From: a virus
Strand: one strand, 5' to 3'
IMG/VR virus record: IMGVR_UViG_3300036820_000068
Span: 1 to 23,322 of that record
DNA: 23,322 bases
This document shows, in pieces, positions 3,390 through 23,322 of this stretch. The notes beneath the pieces are model-generated. The model ran no database searches. It was not told the origin of the DNA and saw nothing but the letters and a program-made list of their open reading frames with translations. Both the position numbers and the translations under genes were made by a program. Position 1 is the stretch's first letter. Each line of letters begins with the position of its first letter.

Positions 3390-3658
3390 GGTTTCTTCTC
3401 CGGGTTGAAGGGTGGAATGTCGGGCGATTCAGAAATGATGTGGTCGAGCTTGGCGTGCAACTTGCCCTGTTCTGCCTCGACGTGCGCCTTCAAGTCGTCG
3501 GCGTGTCGCTTGGCAAATCGTTCGATCGCCTTGCGCGCCGGTGGCCACACGACGACGGCAACGGCGCCATACACGACGGTTTGCACCAAGGCTTCGGGGC
3601 CGTTGCCCTGCAACGACGGCCAGAAATAGCCGAACCACATTGAGTGCAACCAGTTCAT
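3386..3658 (-). CDS. Single-TM, coiled-coil small membrane protein (lysis cassette)
   Basis: A 90-aa protein. An aromatic N-terminus (MNWLHSMWFGYFWPS) leads into one TM segment (about 26-47, LVQTVVYGAVAVVVWPP) and a charged, His/Lys/Glu-rich helix (about 50-80) likely to form a coiled coil, ending in a short Pro-rich tail. The N-terminal pattern matches small membrane proteins that recur beside lysins in actinobacterial phages, often annotated as holin-like or of unknown function. The ATG at 3658 overlaps the preceding TGA (ATGA) and is preferred to the longer frame starting at 3685. Confidence 0.7.
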   Translation of the reverse strand: MNWLHSMWFGYFWPSLQGNGPEALVQTVVYGAVAVVVWPPARKAIERFAKRHADDLKAHVEAEQGKLHAKLDHIISESPDIPPFNPEKKP

Positions 3659-3954
3659 CGCGACGGTTCCTGTACCACGCGGCACATTTTCGCGATTGTG
3701 GCGTAATCGTGCGGGTTCGCGTCTTGGGAGAACGCCAAGGGCACGTCCTGTAACAGTCCGTCAAACGCCTTCTGTTGGCACTTGAACGCTTTGACTAACT
3801 CGGCCACCTGTGCTTGCCCGTTCTGTTGTGAGTCGTGGATAACCACGTAGCCGCCGATGGGCACCACCAACATGACGATGGCGCCCGCGCCCGCGATCCA
3901 CGGTGCCAGCCGTTCCCATGCACCGACCGCGCGCCTGGCTATCTGCGCGCCCAT
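3655..3954 (-). CDS. Single-TM membrane protein with extracytoplasmic-type coil (spanin/holin-accessory candidate)
   Basis: A 99-aa protein. A basic, amphipathic N-terminus (MGAQIARRAVGAWERLAPW) is followed by one TM helix (about 20-40, IAGAGAIVMLVVPIGGYVVI) and a soluble Gln/Lys-rich region with two cysteines (CQQ near 59 and KMCRVV near 91). This layout would fit an accessory lysis protein such as a Rz-like spanin or an antiholin, but there is no family signature. The start overlaps the previous stop (TAATG). Function is inferred from context only. Confidence 0.65.
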   Translation of the reverse strand: MGAQIARRAVGAWERLAPWIAGAGAIVMLVVPIGGYVVIHDSQQNGQAQVAELVKAFKCQQKAFDGLLQDVPLAFSQDANPHDYATIAKMCRVVQEPSR

Positions 3955-4256
3955 TATTCGATCCCCGTTCCGGTTCTCAATGCCTCGATGATTTCGCCGG
4001 GCAACGCGTCCAGGCGCTTGTCGATGCGGTCGAACTCGCCATCCAGCTTCTTGGCGCCGGTCACCGGATCGGGGGGCAACCCAAAGAGGCGGATTTCCAG
4101 CAACTCAATCCGACGTCGGCCCAAGCGTCGATCCCCCATCCAGTTCTTGCCGACGCCGACGACCGCGCCACCGATCACAATGAGAACACCGGCCACACCA
4201 GCCACCGCACCGACAGCACCCCAATCAACCGTGCCGAACACGGCGGCCGTCATCAC
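3954..4256 (-). CDS. Single-TM membrane protein directly after the lysin
   Basis: A 100-aa protein with one strongly hydrophobic Gly/Ala/Val-rich TM helix (about 13-36), a basic stop-transfer segment (KNWMGDRRLGRRR) and a C-terminal amphipathic helix (about 70-95, LDGEFDRIDKRLDALPGEIIEALR) that looks like a short coiled coil. It follows the lysin stop with no gap (GTG at 4256; an ATG at 4253 is the alternative start). Its place makes it a holin or lysis-accessory candidate. The short N-terminus before the TM suggests the C-terminal coil is cytoplasmic, but topology is not certain. Confidence 0.65.
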   Translation of the reverse strand: MMTAAVFGTVDWGAVGAVAGVAGVLIVIGGAVVGVGKNWMGDRRLGRRRIELLEIRLFGLPPDPVTGAKKLDGEFDRIDKRLDALPGEIIEALRTGTGIE

Positions 4257-15980: not shown

Positions 15981-16225
15981 GTGTCCCCGACTTGGGGTTG
16001 CTCCGGGCGAACCTTGGGCGGGCGACCTCGACGCGGGCGCGGCGGGTCCGGCGATTCGGCTACCGGCGGGACGGCCGTGGTCGGCGCATCCCCCCGGTAG
16101 CCGTTGCGCTCCAAATCCGCCGTAATCGAACGGGCAAGGTTCACGTCACCGGTGGCCACGGCGCGTTCACGTGCGGCCACCCATGCCCGGATTTTCACGG
16201 CGTGCCGGTCCGTTGGGAGCGGCAT
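15965..16225 (-). CDS. Small AT-hook-like protein in the head module
   Basis: An 86-aa protein. The N-terminal half is helical (HAVKIRAWVAARERAVATGD, LARSITADLERNG); the C-terminal half is Pro/Arg-rich and contains RPRRGRPPKVRP, which matches the AT-hook core (RGRP flanked by basic residues). It starts at ATG 16225, one base overlapping the previous TAA (TAATG). AT-hooks bind the minor groove of AT-rich DNA; here in a GC-rich phage the motif could bind DNA inside the head or host AT-rich tracts, or be an incidental basic linker. I do not know a family for it. The function is not established. Confidence 0.65.
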   Translation of the reverse strand: MPLPTDRHAVKIRAWVAARERAVATGDVNLARSITADLERNGYRGDAPTTAVPPVAESPDPPRPRRGRPPKVRPEQPQVGDTWPGN

Positions 16226-16836
16226 TAGGACAGGAACACCAGGGGGGTCACGGTGACGGCCGTGGGGGTCGTCAGAGTGGCCGGTGCGGTGCCCGTGGTG
16301 GCCGTCACGGACAGGGCGTAGGAGAACGGTGCCCCGGTGTTCCAGGCGAATCCCCCGACCGCTGCGGCGACAGATACCGATGCCGCCGAGTTCACGGTGC
16401 CGGTTTCTTGGAACCCGGCGAACACGAACCCGTTGGGAGCATTGGCCGCCGTGATGGTGACGGCCGACGCCAACGCGATCGAGTACGGCGCCGACGCCGT
16501 GGGTGCCACGGCGGCGAAGTTCGCCGACTGCGCCAACAGGGCCGACAGCGCCCCGGTGGACATTCCCGAATAAAGCGCGGCGTAACCGATGGTCGTGGTT
16601 GGGGCGGTCGCCCCGGCGATGAATCCCACCTTTGTAATGACCGAACCGACGTCGACCGGGATGGCCACGACGACCAGCTTGTTGGTGACAAGCCCGGCGC
16701 CGTCCGTGAGTCCACCGATACCCGTGTAAGAGGCATTGGAGAAAACCGGTTGCGACGGGTTCGTCGCGTTGGTGGCTTGGCCCAAGGCGGACCAAAGCGG
16801 GTTGGTGGTTGGGTAACGACCCTTGACAAGAGGCAT
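16225..16836 (-). CDS. Ala/Thr-rich protein after the capsid gene (decoration/structural candidate)
   Basis: A 203-aa protein starting at ATG 16836, with a strong Shine-Dalgarno (GAAAGGAAA in the sense strand). It is rich in Ala, Thr, Ser and Gly, with a short N-terminal polar segment (MPLVKGRYPTTNPLW) and many beta-strand-like stretches (TNKLVVVAIPVDVGSVITKV, PNGFVFAGFQETGTV, ATLTTPTAVTVTPLVF). It follows the 545-aa capsid gene across a 97-bp gap that carries a hairpin. Such a gene immediately after the capsid often encodes a decoration protein or head fibre, but I recognise no family. Confidence 0.65.
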   Translation of the reverse strand: MPLVKGRYPTTNPLWSALGQATNATNPSQPVFSNASYTGIGGLTDGAGLVTNKLVVVAIPVDVGSVITKVGFIAGATAPTTTIGYAALYSGMSTGALSALLAQSANFAAVAPTASAPYSIALASAVTITAANAPNGFVFAGFQETGTVNSAASVSVAAAVGGFAWNTGAPFSYALSVTATTGTAPATLTTPTAVTVTPLVFLS

Positions 16837-16884
16837 TGAAGTTTCCTTTCGGTGCAACGTTGAGTGGTGTTAGGGAGGACGGAC

Positions 16885-16933: not shown

Positions 16934-18571
16934 TTAGAACGTGATGGACGTAACGGTCGAGCCGGTCGGTGCCGCCAGGTAGGTCCCTTGCGCAACGGCA
17001 AGGGACTGGCCGTAGCGGACCAAGAAGGCGACGTAGTTGTAAACCTGGTATCGAAGTTCCAGGGTCCCCGAGAGGATTTCGGGAAGCACGCGCACGCGCA
17101 TGTCCCCCTCAAACAACCATGCGTCGTCCCACTTGGCGCCAAGCACCACGTCGTTGGTGCCCGTCAGGACACCGGACCCGTTGTCGGTCGTCGGCACGTT
17201 GGCGTCGATGTAGGCGTTGGGGCCAAACGGGAGCTTGCCCGCGAGACCTTCGGCCGGAACGTCGCCCACGTTGATCGCGCCCGGGTTGAACGGCGAGAAA
17301 TCCGAAGCCTCAACAAGAGGTCGGCCCGTCGAGTCCAACGTCGTGGCGTACCAAAACCAACGCCGCGGGTGCATGACGTAGTTGAGGTTCGACAGGTCGT
17401 AACGGTTCCACGCGATGTTCGACGCCATTGCGCCGGTCACCTGCGGGAAATACTGACCGTTCGGCGTGCCTTCCGTCGCCGTGATCACATTGGTACCCGA
17501 CCAGTTGGTCGACGGGTACACGCCAAGCAACTGGCCGCCGTTGAGCGCGGCCGAGTTGGTGCCGTTGCCGTAGACAACCTGCCGGTCAACCAAGCGGTTG
17601 TAGTCGGAGAGCAAGTCCTCCATGATCACGCGGTCAACGATTTGGCCGGGCGACTGCTCAATCAACTGGATGGCGACGTCCTCTTGGCCCGCAAGGGTCT
17701 TGACGTTCGCCGTCACCGCGGTGTCGGTGTAGTCCACCGACGTCACGGCGCCACCGTCAGCGCCTTGGACGCCAACTTGGGTCAGCGTCGCGAGCTTCGG
17801 AATGTTGATCGAGTCCGTGCCTTCGGGCAGGTCCATTTGCCGACAAAGCCCGGCGGTGATCCGACCCGCACGAAGGCCACCGATGTATTCATCGACCAGC
17901 CACAAGGGCGGAACGAAGTAACCACCTTGGCCGTCCGTCCGGTTGGGATTCACCCGCTTTTCAAACGGGTTCGTTTGCATCCCCTGACTACGGGAACCAA
18001 CGAACGATCCGGTGAACTCGCGTTCGGCTTCGTCAACCTGACGTTGTGCCCGCGCCTCGCGGTCGGCCGCCCGCTTGGGCAACTCGACTTCGATTTCCTT
18101 GGCGTGGCGCGTGAGCCGATCCCGAGCGCCCGACACGTCGTGAAGCCGCGATTGGGCCAACGGGTGGAACATGGCGGCCAGGTCGCGGAAGTACGACACG
18201 GACTTGCCGCTCCCGTCCTTGTATTCGGGATCGGGGCGGTACGTCATCGGTTCGGACACCAAGACGATGTTGCCCTTGTGTTCGGAGGCGGCGGCGGCCC
18301 GACGTGCGACGATTTCTTCGTGTTGACGGATGCGCTCGTCAAGCTCAACGATGCCCGCTTCGTGAAGGTCGACGGCCGACTTGAAGTCGGTTTCGGCCTT
18401 GCGGTACGCCTCGACGTCGTCGTCGGTGATCTTGTCCGCTTCGGTGGCGCGCCGGGCTTCAAACTCGGCGCGTTCCGTTTCGCGGGCGTCGATCATGGTG
18501 CCCCACTCTTCGACCTTCGTTGCGCGCAGTGTCCGCAACTGGTCTAGGAGTGTCGGTTCCGGTGTTGGCAT
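16934..18571 (-). CDS. Major capsid protein, HK97 fold, with N-terminal coiled-coil scaffold region
   Basis: A 545-aa phage capsid protein of the HK97-fold family. Residues about 10-105 form a charged helical region (LDQLRTLRATKVEEWGTM, ETERAEFEARRATEADKI, ELDERIRQHEEIVARRAAAA) that should be a scaffold/delta domain removed by the protease. A second segment (about 106-205) has SVSYFRDLAAMF and HAKEIEVELPKR. The capsid core starts near 206 (RVNPN, GGYFVPPLWLVDEYI) and includes SINIPKLATLTQ, DVAIQLIEQSPGQIVDRV, VMHPRRWFWYATTLDS and the end LSGTLELRYQVYNYVAFL. The ATG is 18571, with GAAAGGAAAG about 5-8 nt upstream. It is paralogous to the upstream 416-aa capsid gene (same order of motifs) and separated by 150 bp with hairpins. 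Confidence 0.88.
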   Translation of the reverse strand: MPTPEPTLLDQLRTLRATKVEEWGTMIDARETERAEFEARRATEADKITDDDVEAYRKAETDFKSAVDLHEAGIVELDERIRQHEEIVARRAAAASEHKGNIVLVSEPMTYRPDPEYKDGSGKSVSYFRDLAAMFHPLAQSRLHDVSGARDRLTRHAKEIEVELPKRAADREARAQRQVDEAEREFTGSFVGSRSQGMQTNPFEKRVNPNRTDGQGGYFVPPLWLVDEYIGGLRAGRITAGLCRQMDLPEGTDSINIPKLATLTQVGVQGADGGAVTSVDYTDTAVTANVKTLAGQEDVAIQLIEQSPGQIVDRVIMEDLLSDYNRLVDRQVVYGNGTNSAALNGGQLLGVYPSTNWSGTNVITATEGTPNGQYFPQVTGAMASNIAWNRYDLSNLNYVMHPRRWFWYATTLDSTGRPLVEASDFSPFNPGAINVGDVPAEGLAGKLPFGPNAYIDANVPTTDNGSGVLTGTNDVVLGAKWDDAWLFEGDMRVRVLPEILSGTLELRYQVYNYVAFLVRYGQSLAVAQGTYLAAPTGSTVTSITF

Positions 18572-18593
18572 GACTCTTTCCTTTCGGGAGTAA

Positions 18594-18611
18594 GCGCGCC
18601 AAGTGGCACGC
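18594..18611 (-). other. Hairpin just upstream of the 545-aa capsid gene
   Basis: In the mRNA sense, GCGTGCC, loop ACTT, GGCGCGC form a 7-bp stem with one U-G pair. It ends 22 nt before the ATG (18571), just before the Shine-Dalgarno. Together with the palindrome at 18654-18669 it may affect mRNA stability or expression of the capsid gene. Confidence 0.4.
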
Positions 18612-18653
18612 GTGGCATTGCTCCCGGGTGGTGCGAGCGGGCGGCCGGGGTGC

Positions 18654-18669
18654 TGCGCCAGATGGCGCA
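18654..18669. repeat. Perfect 7-bp inverted repeat between the two capsid genes
   Basis: TGCGCCA, GA, TGGCGCA. The spacer is just 2 bp, so as DNA it could be a dimeric protein site; as RNA it would form a slightly shorter hairpin. It lies in the only 150-bp gap of the head region. A tandem GCGGGCC pair (18675-18688) is next to it. Confidence 0.5.
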
Positions 18670-18721
18670 ACGACGCGGGCCGCGGGCCGTGACCGGCGCG
18701 GGCGTTATGAACTGGTCGGGT

Positions 18722-19972
18722 TTAGAACCCGGATTGAACGACCATGCCCGTTCCGTTCAACGTTGCCGTTGACGACGGGTAGGCGGCGATAAATGCGACG
18801 TAGTTGCGAATCTGGATGCGGGCTTCCAGCGTGCCCGCGAGGACTTCCAAGAACACGTTGGTGACCGGCGTGCCTTCCCACAACAGGAAGTCGGATTGGC
18901 GAACCGCGATGATTTGGTCCGCGTTGGCCGTCGCGCCCGCAGTGTTGGTCACGGCGTCGTCGCAATACACGGACCACCCGAGCATCGACCCCACGGCGTT
19001 GGTGCCATCGGGGTCGAGCTTGACCGGTGCGGCGAGTTCGGGCGGCACGATCGGACGCAAGGACGAGTCCTCGGATGAGCCGATCCACGCCCACCGAGCG
19101 GTCCGCATAAGCCACGCTTCGGGTGGCAAGTTCCGGTTGTCGCCCAACTGTCCGGCGACCTGGCCGATGAATGGGTACATTTCGGACAGGGTCGGCGATG
19201 CGTCGGTGTAGGTGACTTGGTTGGCCGCCGCCGCGTTGACGGTGACGCCGGTGAATTGTCCGGCGGAGCCGGTGCCGTACAACATCGACACTTCAAGGTC
19301 GGCGTCGTAGGAGGACGACAAGTCCTTGAAGATCGCCCAATCCAAATGTGCACCCGGCGGCGACTGTTCCAACAGTTGCAAGGCAACGTCGGATTGACCC
19401 GACAGGGTCACCACCGGAGAGGTCTTGGCCGTGTCGACAATCGCTTGGTCGGGGTCGGGCACAAGGTCTTGGGCCACGGCGTCGTCGGTGCCGGTCGTCA
19501 GCAACGGAATGTTGATCGACTGACAACCGGCCGGGAGCGGGAACAGGCCGCCCGCCTCGTTGACAAGGTCGGCGAGAACTCGGCCCGGCCGCTTGGCCGT
19601 CAGGAACTTTTCAACCAGCCACAACGGCGGGGCAAAGTAGCCGCCTTCGCCGGGCGTCACGTTCGGGTTGACGCGGGTTTCAAGTTCGGCGTCGTCGTGC
19701 TTTCGTGCGAACCGGTCGCGCTTGGCGAGTTCGACGCGCATTTCTGCTTCGTGCCGGGCCAGGCGGGCGTTCGCCGCGTTGTCGCCCTGGTGCCCGTTGA
19801 CCATGTCCTTGAAGTAGGACACCGGCGCTTCGCGCTCGTAGGTCAGGGGTTCCCGCTTGACGCCTTCGCCCCAATGTGCGGTCGACAACGTCGCGGTGAT
19901 TTGTTCGTCGGGCGCGATCCACCCGGCGGCCCGCGCCTCAGCGGCGGCCGTGTCGGCCAGAGTGTCGGTCAT
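18722..19972 (-). CDS. Second HK97-fold capsid protein (paralog, shorter N-terminus)
   Basis: A 416-aa capsid protein homologous to the 545-aa gene downstream. Shared, in order: APVSYFKDMVNG versus KSVSYFRDLAAM; RHEAEMRVELAKR versus RHAKEIEVELPKR; RVNPN, GGYF, PPLWLV at residue 100; SINIPLL versus SINIPKL; DVALQLLEQSP versus DVAIQLIEQSP; and near the end LAGTLEARIQIRNYVAFI versus LSGTLELRYQVYNYVAFL. It lacks the roughly 100-residue charged coiled-coil at the start of the other protein, carrying only an Ala/acidic N-terminus. The ATG (19972) overlaps the protease stop (ATGA), so it is coupled to the protease. Two capsid genes could mean hexamer/vertex specialisation or one duplicated copy in decline, but both frames are intact. 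Confidence 0.85.
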   Translation of the reverse strand: MTDTLADTAAAEARAAGWIAPDEQITATLSTAHWGEGVKREPLTYEREAPVSYFKDMVNGHQGDNAANARLARHEAEMRVELAKRDRFARKHDDAELETRVNPNVTPGEGGYFAPPLWLVEKFLTAKRPGRVLADLVNEAGGLFPLPAGCQSINIPLLTTGTDDAVAQDLVPDPDQAIVDTAKTSPVVTLSGQSDVALQLLEQSPPGAHLDWAIFKDLSSSYDADLEVSMLYGTGSAGQFTGVTVNAAAANQVTYTDASPTLSEMYPFIGQVAGQLGDNRNLPPEAWLMRTARWAWIGSSEDSSLRPIVPPELAAPVKLDPDGTNAVGSMLGWSVYCDDAVTNTAGATANADQIIAVRQSDFLLWEGTPVTNVFLEVLAGTLEARIQIRNYVAFIAAYPSSTATLNGTGMVVQSGF

Positions 19973-21447
19973 ACCGCGACCTTCCCGGCCCGGCGGGCCA
20001 ACCGTGCCTTGGCGTCGGTGGAGTAGTTCGGCAATGTGTCGAGTGCCGACAAGGGTGCCGACTTGCCTTCGGCGGGCGGCGGTGGCTTGTTCTTGGACGG
20101 GTCCGTCTTGTCCATGTCTGCGTCCTGTGCAATGTCGGGATTCTTGACTCCCATGAGTGCGGACAGTTCCACCAACGCGTGGTCGATGTTCGTGTCCGCC
20201 CCTTGCACCAAGTCGAGGACGGCCGACAGAGTTTTCATGTTGGCCGCCGAAATAGCCGCACCGGCCCGGAGTTCCACCAACGCCGCCATGTACTCGTCGG
20301 GCGTGATGCCACGAATGGCGAAGGCGTCCCGTAGGTCAATCGCCGTCGACCCGGCGGTGTGCGGGTTGGCGCCGAAGTTCACCACGGAAACATCGCCCTG
20401 GTGCATGTTGACTTCTTGGATTTCGCGTTGGGTATAGTCCTCGTCCCACTCCTGGCGAGTGGCCCGGAAGGCGAACGACATTTCGTCAAGGTCGCCGTCG
20501 TCCACGGCGGCCCGGACGATCGACACGTCCGGTCGGGACAGGTTCAAGGTCGCTTCGGTGAACAACCCGGTCGAGTCCGACGACAGTTGCAACGTGCCCG
20601 ACTTGGTGCGGGCCATCGTGATCCCGTCGTGGTTGCACAAGAAGTTGACGTCCGCCTTGTCGTTGATCGTCTTGGCAAATGCGTTGCGTGCGATCGTTTC
20701 TTGATACGGGCCAAACATGTCGGATACCTCGTAAGGCTTTTCGACCACCGAGGCATACCCGGTGAAGCGAAGCGATGTACCGCCGCTGCCGTTGGCCACC
20801 TCGCGCATTTCAAAGCGATGGGCCGTGCGGAAGTCGGGGTCCTGTTCACGCACGCACCGGGTTTCGGTGGTCGTGCGTCGTTCGGATCGGAACTCGTCGC
20901 CGTACAACCGGGCACGTGCGGCGGCCGTCCGTGACGGTGCCGCCTTCTTTTCCGGCGCCTCCCCGCTGCCCCCACAATCGGGGCACTCACGGTTCCCGTC
21001 GAGGATCGTTCCCGATCCCTCGCACGTCGGGCACGGTGTTCCCTGGTCGTCATCGGTCCGTGTTTCGGTGCCGGTGTCGTCGGCTTCCTTTAGTTGTGGC
21101 ACGTCATCGTCCTTCACTCCCGCGTCCTTTAGGTGGGCCGCTAGATGCGCCCACACGCCATGCACATCGCCACTTGGCAGGGTCGTCCCGTTGCGCGCTC
21201 CGTTGAGGACCCCAATGCCCGTCGAACACGCAATGGTCGACGCGGCGCCAGGGCCGCCGTCCGAGGCAACAAAGTGGTGAATGAACTTCCAATCGCTCTT
21301 GTTCGTGCCATCGGTTCCGGGCGCCTGCCATGCGAACGTCCGCACGCCTTCGGCTTTGTTCATCGGAATGTCGAGGTTCTTTTCCATTGCCGGGCCGTTC
21401 CAGGTCCCGTCGTCGGTCGCGGTGTGATGTATCGGAACTGCTGGCAC
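19969..21447 (-). CDS. Prohead protease (HK97 gp4-like) with extra N-terminal and Cys-rich domains
   Basis: A 492-aa protein in three parts. Residues about 6-110 (HHTATDDGTWNGPA, AYAWQ-like RTFAWQAPGTDG, DWKFIHHFVASDGGPGAAS, GIGVLNGARNGTTLP, WAHLAAHLKDAGV) are an accessory domain also found on actinophage proteases. Residues 139-162 hold CPTCEGSG and CPDCGGSG, a DnaJ-like half zinc finger. The protease domain (about 205-400) shows LCNHD (His273), DEMSFAF (Ser324) and GDVSVVNFGANP, the S78/U35 pattern for maturation of HK97-type heads. The C-terminus is Ala- and Pro-rich. The GTG at 21447 is preferred over the longer frame from 21564 because AGGGGG lies about 6 nt upstream and the domain starts there. 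It overlaps the next ATG (ATGA). Confidence 0.85.
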   Translation of the reverse strand: MPAVPIHHTATDDGTWNGPAMEKNLDIPMNKAEGVRTFAWQAPGTDGTNKSDWKFIHHFVASDGGPGAASTIACSTGIGVLNGARNGTTLPSGDVHGVWAHLAAHLKDAGVKDDDVPQLKEADDTGTETRTDDDQGTPCPTCEGSGTILDGNRECPDCGGSGEAPEKKAAPSRTAAARARLYGDEFRSERRTTTETRCVREQDPDFRTAHRFEMREVANGSGGTSLRFTGYASVVEKPYEVSDMFGPYQETIARNAFAKTINDKADVNFLCNHDGITMARTKSGTLQLSSDSTGLFTEATLNLSRPDVSIVRAAVDDGDLDEMSFAFRATRQEWDEDYTQREIQEVNMHQGDVSVVNFGANPHTAGSTAIDLRDAFAIRGITPDEYMAALVELRAGAAISAANMKTLSAVLDLVQGADTNIDHALVELSALMGVKNPDIAQDADMDKTDPSKNKPPPPAEGKSAPLSALDTLPNYSTDAKARLARRAGKVAV

Positions 21448-21457
21448 GTCACACCCC

Positions 21458-22699
21458 CTAGAAGGACGGCGGCGGCGCCGGTGGGCCGCCGGGTTGACCA
21501 ACGCCGGGTGGCGCCGATGGCGCGGCCGAGTTGAGCGGTTGCGCCGGGTTGGCCCCGATGCCATCGGGAAGCGGTGCCTTCTTTTCCTTCTCGCGGATTT
21601 CGTCCGAGGTCAACCACCCGGCCGTCCGGGCCGCCATGTAGGCGGCATAACGAGTCGGGGTGTCACCGGCGAGCCGCGCGTCAAGATCAAACTTCACGTA
21701 TTGGTTAGGCGGCACCAACAGGTTGAACAACGACTCCCACTTGCCGAGGTAACCGCCGACCGTGTTGCGCGTGAACCCAAGCTCTTGTTGCTCGATGCCG
21801 GTGCCCCACGACGTCGACCGGTCAACGATGCCGATCATGTGCGGCGGAACCCGAAAAATCATTCCCGAGATTTCGCCTTGCGAGAACTGGCGCGACTCGA
21901 TGAATTGTGAGTCCTCCGGGTTGAGTGAGATTTGTTCCCACTTCAACCCGCCGGTCAGGACGGCCGGTAGGTTCCCGGCACCGATGCCTTGGTGCGCTTG
22001 CATCCACGACCGTGCGAGGTCCAACGTTTCTTCTTCAGTCATGTCCTCTTGCGCGTAGATCACGCCGGACGGGTTGGCCGAGTTGGCAAAGAACGAACCG
22101 CCGTACATGTCCGCCGCACGCGCCAAGCCAATGGTGTTCCGCAACATTTCCACCGGGTTCAACCCGACGACGGAACCGGGTACTTGCAAGTTGCGCACGT
22201 GGCACATGTCGTCAATCGACTTGACCATGCCGCCGACGCGGTATTCGATCGTCCCGTCCGCCAGGCGCCGCACCCGGACGTTGTCGGGGTGTAGTGGCTT
22301 CAACTGTGTGGGCAACAAGGTGTCGGGGTCACGTTGGGTGACCAACGAGTAAGAGTTCCCCCGCAAGGTCAACGACACCATGCCTTGGGTGAACCAGTCT
22401 TGTTGCGTGATTTCAACGAACGGTTGCAGCACGATCGGCGACGGCGGGAGCTCAATGTCGGGGCCGTTGTTGTTCTTTCGATACTGACGCAGCGGCAACG
22501 TCGACACCGCGTCGGCCAGCACCGACACGGACCCGTACACGGCCGCCACTTCAAGGGCCGTCTTTTCGGACACGTAGGTTCCGGCTACCGACCCGCCCAA
22601 CATGCCGTTGGACGGTGGCGTCGAATCGCCCCACGGCATCGTGGGGTCGGCGCCTCGGCGTTCAAGCAGGGCCGTCGTCGCCCGGCGAATGATGCTCAC
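21458..22699 (-). CDS. HK97-family portal protein
   Basis: A 413-aa portal protein, forming the dodecameric DNA channel at the head vertex. Signature pieces: SEKTALEVAAVYGSVSVLAD and AVSTLPLRQYRK at the start, TQGMVSLTLRGNSYSLVTQRD, LKPLHPDNVRVRRLADGTIE, LQVPGSVVGLNPVEMLRNTI, SGVIYAQEDMTEEETL, AVLTGGLKWEQISLNPEDSQFIE, FRVPPHMIGIVDRSTSWGTG and KWESLFNLLVPPNQYVKFDL. The end (about 385-413) is a Pro-rich disordered tail. GTG 22699 overlaps the stop of the preceding small gene (GTGA). Confidence 0.92.
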   Translation of the reverse strand: MSIIRRATTALLERRGADPTMPWGDSTPPSNGMLGGSVAGTYVSEKTALEVAAVYGSVSVLADAVSTLPLRQYRKNNNGPDIELPPSPIVLQPFVEITQQDWFTQGMVSLTLRGNSYSLVTQRDPDTLLPTQLKPLHPDNVRVRRLADGTIEYRVGGMVKSIDDMCHVRNLQVPGSVVGLNPVEMLRNTIGLARAADMYGGSFFANSANPSGVIYAQEDMTEEETLDLARSWMQAHQGIGAGNLPAVLTGGLKWEQISLNPEDSQFIESRQFSQGEISGMIFRVPPHMIGIVDRSTSWGTGIEQQELGFTRNTVGGYLGKWESLFNLLVPPNQYVKFDLDARLAGDTPTRYAAYMAARTAGWLTSDEIREKEKKAPLPDGIGANPAQPLNSAAPSAPPGVGQPGGPPAPPPSF

Positions 22700-22876: not shown

Positions 22877-23322
22877 TCAGCGCGCGGCGTTCGCCAGGGC
22901 GTCGTTTAGGTTGATCGTCGTCCGGCGCCGTTTCTTCAACTGGCTGGCACGGTCAAACGCCATAACGGCGGCAACGGCGAGGTCGATCTTTCGGGCCGAG
23001 TTCCGGTTCTCCTTCGCCAAGCGTGACCCGCGCGCGTCGGTTTTCAACACTGCGTTGTTGACGTGGCGGGCTAGGTCGCCACTTCCTGAATGGGTCATGG
23101 ACCCGTTCATCACCGCGTCGTAAAAGCGTGACGTAGCGGGCATCATGCGCGCCGGACTCTGCGGGTACTCGACCATCGGCAGGCGTTCGGCCGCCAAGAC
23201 CTGCAACGGCAACGCCCACCGCGACGGGTCACACGCGACTTCGCGCACCTTCCACCGCTTGCACGCCTCACGTATGGCGTCCATGACGTCCTCGATGGGC
23301 ACGACCCAATCGTCGGGGTCGG
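22877..23322 (-). CDS. terL: Terminase large subunit, C-terminal part (truncated by window edge)
   Basis: About 147 residues of the nuclease end of a large terminase subunit; the frame continues beyond the window edge, so the real start lies outside. Visible parts: DPDDWVVPIEDVMDAIREA, CKRWKVREVACDPSRWALPL, PQSPARMMPATSRFYDAVMN, and the C-terminal NSARKIDLAVAAVMAFDRA, whose Asp is a conserved acidic residue of the RNase-H-like nuclease. It packages DNA with the ATPase half, which is missing here. The first gene of the visible late operon; a 19-bp gap with a Shine-Dalgarno precedes the next gene. Confidence 0.88.
   Translation of the reverse strand, partial: DPDDWVVPIEDVMDAIREACKRWKVREVACDPSRWALPLQVLAAERLPMVEYPQSPARMMPATSRFYDAVMNGSMTHSGSGDLARHVNNAVLKTDARGSRLAKENRNSARKIDLAVAAVMAFDRASQLKKRRRTTINLNDALANAAR

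Follow-up and report, generated by a model that had tools for sequence, protein, structure and literature searches.

Why does a phage keep two capsid genes, one directly behind the other? The question is raised by the IMG/VR virus record IMGVR_UViG_3300036820_000068, which we have analysed as a whole stretch of 23,322 bases (the window). The capsid pair lies on the minus strand; its genes code for two proteins which we call MCP-A and MCP-B:

18722..19972, minus strand: MCP-A, a 416-amino-acid HK97-fold capsid paralog without delta/scaffold helices; its start and the protease stop share 4 bases (ATGA).
16934..18571, minus strand: MCP-B, a 545-amino-acid HK97-fold capsid paralog with N-terminal delta/scaffold helices.
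18278..18550, minus strand: the long N-terminal helix region of MCP-B (residues 8–98), not found in MCP-A, as defined by model secondary structure and a family-wide gap analysis.

The open frame of MCP-B extends to 18670; an ATG with a Shine-Dalgarno sequence is found at 18571. The answer that we favour has about an even chance of being right: one head would be built from both paralogs, with MCP-B as the scaffolded major lattice protein and MCP-A as a minor component whose most likely place is at the pentameric vertices. It would be a convergent counterpart of gp23/gp24 in phage T4.

The two proteins are clearly paralogs. They share 33% identity (E-value 2e-57) in an alignment which spans the whole core, and both open reading frames are intact. 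Each of them is above the Pfam cut-off of 24.2 bits for PF05065 (29.1 bits for MCP-A, 40 for MCP-B) and each matches PHROG 2263, 'major head protein' (E-values 1.4e-25 and 2.7e-39). AlphaFold2 models of moderate confidence (mean pLDDT 73.9 for MCP-A, 75.5 for MCP-B) match the structure of HK97 gp5 (1ohg), with Z 19.8 over 259 aligned residues for MCP-A and Z 17.4 over 247 for MCP-B; they also match other HK97-fold shells. A sequence search for solved structures, with a profile in the case of MCP-A, gave none for either protein up to an E-value of 1. In a Pfam scan of both (E-values up to 0.1) PF05065 was found, and neither the T4 capsid family nor any other capsid family. A preliminary description of this DNA, made from its letters, had claimed two intact tandem paralogous HK97-fold capsid genes, which agrees with all these matches. 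It had also placed the scaffold in the second protein only. This is indeed what the models show: MCP-B has two long N-terminal helices, residues 8–43 and 50–98, and MCP-A has neither.

The asymmetry holds across the whole lineage. The stretch before the capsid core has mostly 56–136 amino acids in MCP-A, counted from the likely start (a longer start is possible in one locus, L046), and 194–255 in MCP-B. The delta domain is missing from MCP-A throughout, and it is present in the sister and outgroup proteins. Since hardly any single-copy protein of the sister group or the outgroup lacks the first N-terminal helix of MCP-B, this helix has most likely been lost by MCP-A. To judge from these sequences, MCP-B most likely keeps the ancestral state together with the delta domain, and MCP-A is the derived copy.

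The pair is not a peculiarity of one record. We scanned viral contigs with MCP-A, MCP-B and a profile of each: after removal of duplicates, the tandem with the same order and the same asymmetry is present in 34 distinct contigs, the window and 33 others. An assembly artefact is thus ruled out, since the pair recurs in many independent contigs. In the scan with the MCP-B profile all loci scoring at least 700 have MCP-A directly upstream; the single-copy relatives, with scores up to 624, do not have it. The nearest relatives among 50,697 phage records are found in 57 of them, all from mycobacteriophages (Baka, Courthouse, Bipper, MiaZeal and their relatives). Their capsid proteins have about 31 to 35% identity and an N-terminal extension like that of MCP-B, but every one of these records has a single capsid gene and no paralog of the MCP-A type. 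A scan of cellular genome contigs for the tandem pair gave three relatives, all single-copy; in two samples from the class and the phylum of Paraconexibacter, with about 400 genomes in each (about 800 in total), only single copies were seen. The tandem phages are uncultured and tailed, and their host lineage is probably actinobacterial, as suggested by the relatives in genomes of Actinomycetota. Literature searches for phages with a capsid gene pair like this one gave nothing relevant. To our knowledge, T4 is the only other phage for which capsid paralogs in this side-by-side arrangement have been described in detail.

Some loci have additional elements in or between the two genes. In L007 the genes for MCP-A and MCP-B are separated by a tRNA-Ser(GCT) gene (4012–4097), and in L008 by two small genes coding for 98 and 128 amino acids (3492–4174). 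Group I introns interrupt MCP-B in L008 (5105–5339), L009 (4828–5086 and 6228–6445) and L175 (5148–5376); three of them share one site, in the conserved GG(F/Y)/PPLW motif. The introns of L008 and L009 have antisense open reading frames with LAGLIDADG-like motifs. MCP-B of L174 may be a further case; no interruption was seen in MCP-A.

How old is the pair? We built a FastTree tree of 125 core sequences and an IQ-TREE tree of 65, the latter with SH-aLRT support and no bootstrap. In both trees MCP-A forms one clade and MCP-B another, and both belong to one group together with a few single-copy relatives (L072, L077–L085). The support of the MCP-A clade is 0.81 in FastTree and 100 in IQ-TREE, where MCP-B also has 100. 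Since each copy forms a single clade, one old duplication fits. The single-copy relatives are grouped with MCP-B by FastTree (0.90), while IQ-TREE leaves the fork open: their position relative to the duplication is not settled. The preliminary description had called for such a phylogeny, with the possibility in mind that two unrelated capsids had been joined from different phages. This origin is ruled out, because MCP-A and MCP-B are paralogs in one supported group.

Both copies have been inherited together. Their distances are correlated (Mantel r 0.52, 0 of 20,000 permutations), and their identity is practically the same within one phage (34%) as between phages (33%), with no sign of gene conversion. 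This last result bears on the possibility of a mixed lattice, in which both proteins would be present in the same capsomers, in a variable or a fixed ratio, and the scaffold of MCP-B would serve both of them. Copies which have been distinct since an old duplication speak against such mixing; on the other side, MCP-A and MCP-B at 33% are far closer to each other than gp23 and gp24 of T4 (17 to 20%). Random mixing of two HK97-fold paralogs in one shell is already known from the two-component family 2B encapsulin of Streptomyces lydicus (PMC12407261). We consider a mixed lattice possible, but on balance doubtful.

The encapsulin also has its two paralogs encoded together, and its chains are among the structural matches of MCP-A and MCP-B. 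It differs in being a cellular compartment and not a virus, with shell proteins which are about 70% alike and have no scaffold asymmetry. MCP-A and MCP-B are flanked by genes for portal, protease, terminase, head-tail adaptor and tail tube.

Purifying selection acts on both genes. The ratio of nonsynonymous to synonymous substitution (dN/dS) is 0.17–0.38 for MCP-A and 0.14–0.49 for MCP-B, for those pairs that allowed a calculation; with dS as high as it is here, the values are rough. One MCP-B sequence in a wrong frame (L126) was left out. The ratio, also proposed in the preliminary description as a sign of relaxed selection on one copy, is thus below 0.5 for each, and a pseudogene or relaxed second copy is ruled out. 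MCP-A does evolve faster than MCP-B, with lower conservation in 195 of the 210 phage pairs, as might be expected if it were a remnant or an unimportant minor virion protein, kept by chance or for a role outside the shell. We find this very improbable: MCP-A is intact in all tandem loci, its dN/dS is below 0.4, its capsid residues are conserved, it lies upstream of every strongly MCP-B-like gene and elsewhere it is the sole capsid gene. Nine type-II sites distinguish the two copies, and at most of them MCP-B has the state of the outgroup.

A separate tandem capsid pair was found in L023 (1536–4059), in a different clade (SH-aLRT 92). One copy has N-terminal helices and the other does not; in this contig the first copy carries a frameshift. 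A search for further duplications of this kind found none.

The layout of the genes suggests that the two proteins are made in different amounts. In 15 of 20 loci the start of MCP-A overlaps the stop of the protease gene by 4 or 1 bases, which suggests translational coupling. MCP-B is preceded by a leader of 127–872 nt with its own Shine-Dalgarno sequence. The leader ends in a stem, located in the window as follows:

18585..18626, minus strand: hairpin in the MCP-A/MCP-B intergenic leader (CGGGAG ... CUCCCG), directly before the strong MCP-B Shine-Dalgarno sequence GAAAGGA (18579–18585).

Such a stem, just before a GAAAGGA-like Shine-Dalgarno sequence, is present in 16 of the first 22 loci. 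It is kept in L064 and L068 by a two-sided change (GGGAU/AUCCC) and in L047 by wobble pairs; in L066 it pairs in a shifted register. Further tandem loci have the element in only 2 of 10 cases by a simple pattern: it is common among them, not universal. A DNA-pattern scan for stem and Shine-Dalgarno sequence gave 18 stretches, 12 of them at the MCP-A/MCP-B junction, and two others follow other phage capsid genes (L124 and L131, judged by eye). The hairpin may therefore be a general element after capsid genes. No credible match to a known RNA family was found for the leader.

From these features we propose the following course. Long ago the capsid gene would have been duplicated in tandem, which would have led to a two-protein head shell. 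MCP-B, which would keep the ancestral delta/scaffold domain, would drive assembly and form the bulk hexamer lattice. MCP-A, having lost the scaffold, would be less abundant, its translation being coupled to that of the protease, and it would be drawn into the procapsid scaffolded by MCP-B, most likely at the five-fold vertices, as gp24 is beside gp23 in T4. If 11 pentamers were filled, a head would have 55 copies of MCP-A. A minor role of MCP-A is favoured by indirect signals: the coupling to the protease gene, its faster evolution and the loss of delta as in gp24. The preliminary description had suggested that one copy may form pentons or a mixed lattice, with only one of the two supplying the scaffold; its interpretation is supported in part, for the paralogy, the intact state and selection of both genes and the one-sided scaffold. 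The reading as a whole is supported by the tandem in 34 contigs, the two clades, the Mantel correlation, dN/dS, the presence of MCP-A upstream of strong MCP-B genes, the delta pattern, the type-II states, the difference in rate, the gene layout and the parallel with T4.

T4 is also the closest comparison. In both systems there are two HK97-fold paralogs which arose by duplication, with a head protease nearby. The N-terminal prosegment lost by gp23 has 65 residues and that of gp24 only 10 (PMC9958956). A similar contrast, long on the presumed lattice protein and short on the other, is found here, where it refers to the lengths before the core. There are also differences: MCP-A and MCP-B belong to PF05065/PHROG 2263 and not to the gp23/gp24 family, they are closer to each other, as noted above, their genes belong to a small head operon of siphophage-like type, and relatives without MCP-B exist. 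The vertex position of MCP-A, its lower amount and the joining of both proteins in one head are inferred. The system probably works like the two-protein head of T4 without belonging to its protein family. HK97 gp5 is a simpler case: MCP-B shares with it the fold, a helical domain at the N-terminus and an upstream S78 protease, but in HK97 a single protein makes all capsomers.

Several observations weigh against a division into lattice and vertex proteins. The strength of the Shine-Dalgarno sequences is little different (median -9.1 kcal/mol for MCP-A, -10.5 for MCP-B). There are only nine type-II sites, and only five of them fall within the A domain, roughly the number to be expected for a domain of this size. 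Finally, some relatives have MCP-A with no second capsid gene found, which implies that MCP-A can serve alone in some phages. They form about five lineages nested in the MCP-A clade, with no MCP-B nearby (L003/L004, L048, L049, L057, L061 and L120). All of them are fragments, so that MCP-B could lie outside, except L120, which lies in Paraconexibacter antarcticus: the whole genome has a single capsid gene of this family. In some relatives, then, hexamers can probably be made of MCP-A as well, a point in favour of a mixed lattice, although the gene layout, with its signs of unequal expression, goes against it. These relatives suggest that MCP-A is not inherently or everywhere limited to pentons.

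In L003/L004, L061, L057 and L120 the gene for MCP-A is followed by one for a small charged protein (126–225 amino acids), coiled-coil-like by eye and without a match in a family search. These proteins may be scaffolds which act in trans; if so, they would fit the N-terminal domain of MCP-B normally scaffolding MCP-A too. With MCP-A as sole capsid protein, in some cases beside a separate putative coiled-coil protein in place of MCP-B, one may also think that in the tandem phages each of the two proteins makes a particle of its own, or that they determine two sizes of head, instead of sharing one shell. This is unlikely: both genes belong to a single operon, which has one portal and one protease gene, and MCP-A of the tandem phages would be without a scaffold if MCP-B did not supply it. 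A possible, but on balance doubtful, variant of the two-protein head is a second, independently evolved HK97-type head which needs two shell paralogs, with the scaffold fused to one of them. Capsomers would then be shared, or the ratio of MCP-A to MCP-B would set the size of the head, instead of MCP-A merely capping vertices.

This diverse phage lineage with its conserved pair is an independent example of a single capsid protein that has become two. Its single-copy relatives and those without MCP-B offer natural states for comparison, so that one can test beyond T4 how roles are divided between hexamer and penton and between subunits with and without a scaffold.

In the head region, on the minus strand, we find in this order the terminase C-terminus, portal, S78 protease, MCP-A, MCP-B, a 204-amino-acid protein, a 117-amino-acid protein and the head-tail adaptor, with the tail tube further on:

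22877..23320, minus strand: large terminase subunit, C-terminal part, cut by the window end (Pfam/PHROG matches).
21458..22699, minus strand: portal protein (Pfam/PHROG matches).
19969..21564, minus strand: prohead protease (Peptidase S78), directly upstream of MCP-A and overlapping it (Pfam/PHROG matches).
16225..16839, minus strand: 204-amino-acid protein after MCP-B, kept in several tandem loci, perhaps a decoration protein.

The 204-amino-acid protein had no match in a PHROG search. In the per-gene conservation table of the tandem loci MCP-A was left out, because the longest-hit rule picked matches of MCP-A to MCP-B. In its N-terminal part the protease frame contains a zinc-finger stretch similar to that of DnaJ (CxxCxGxG) at residues 172–204, with a weak, sub-threshold match to PF00684; a similar stretch is present in the protease of L008 (456–2117).
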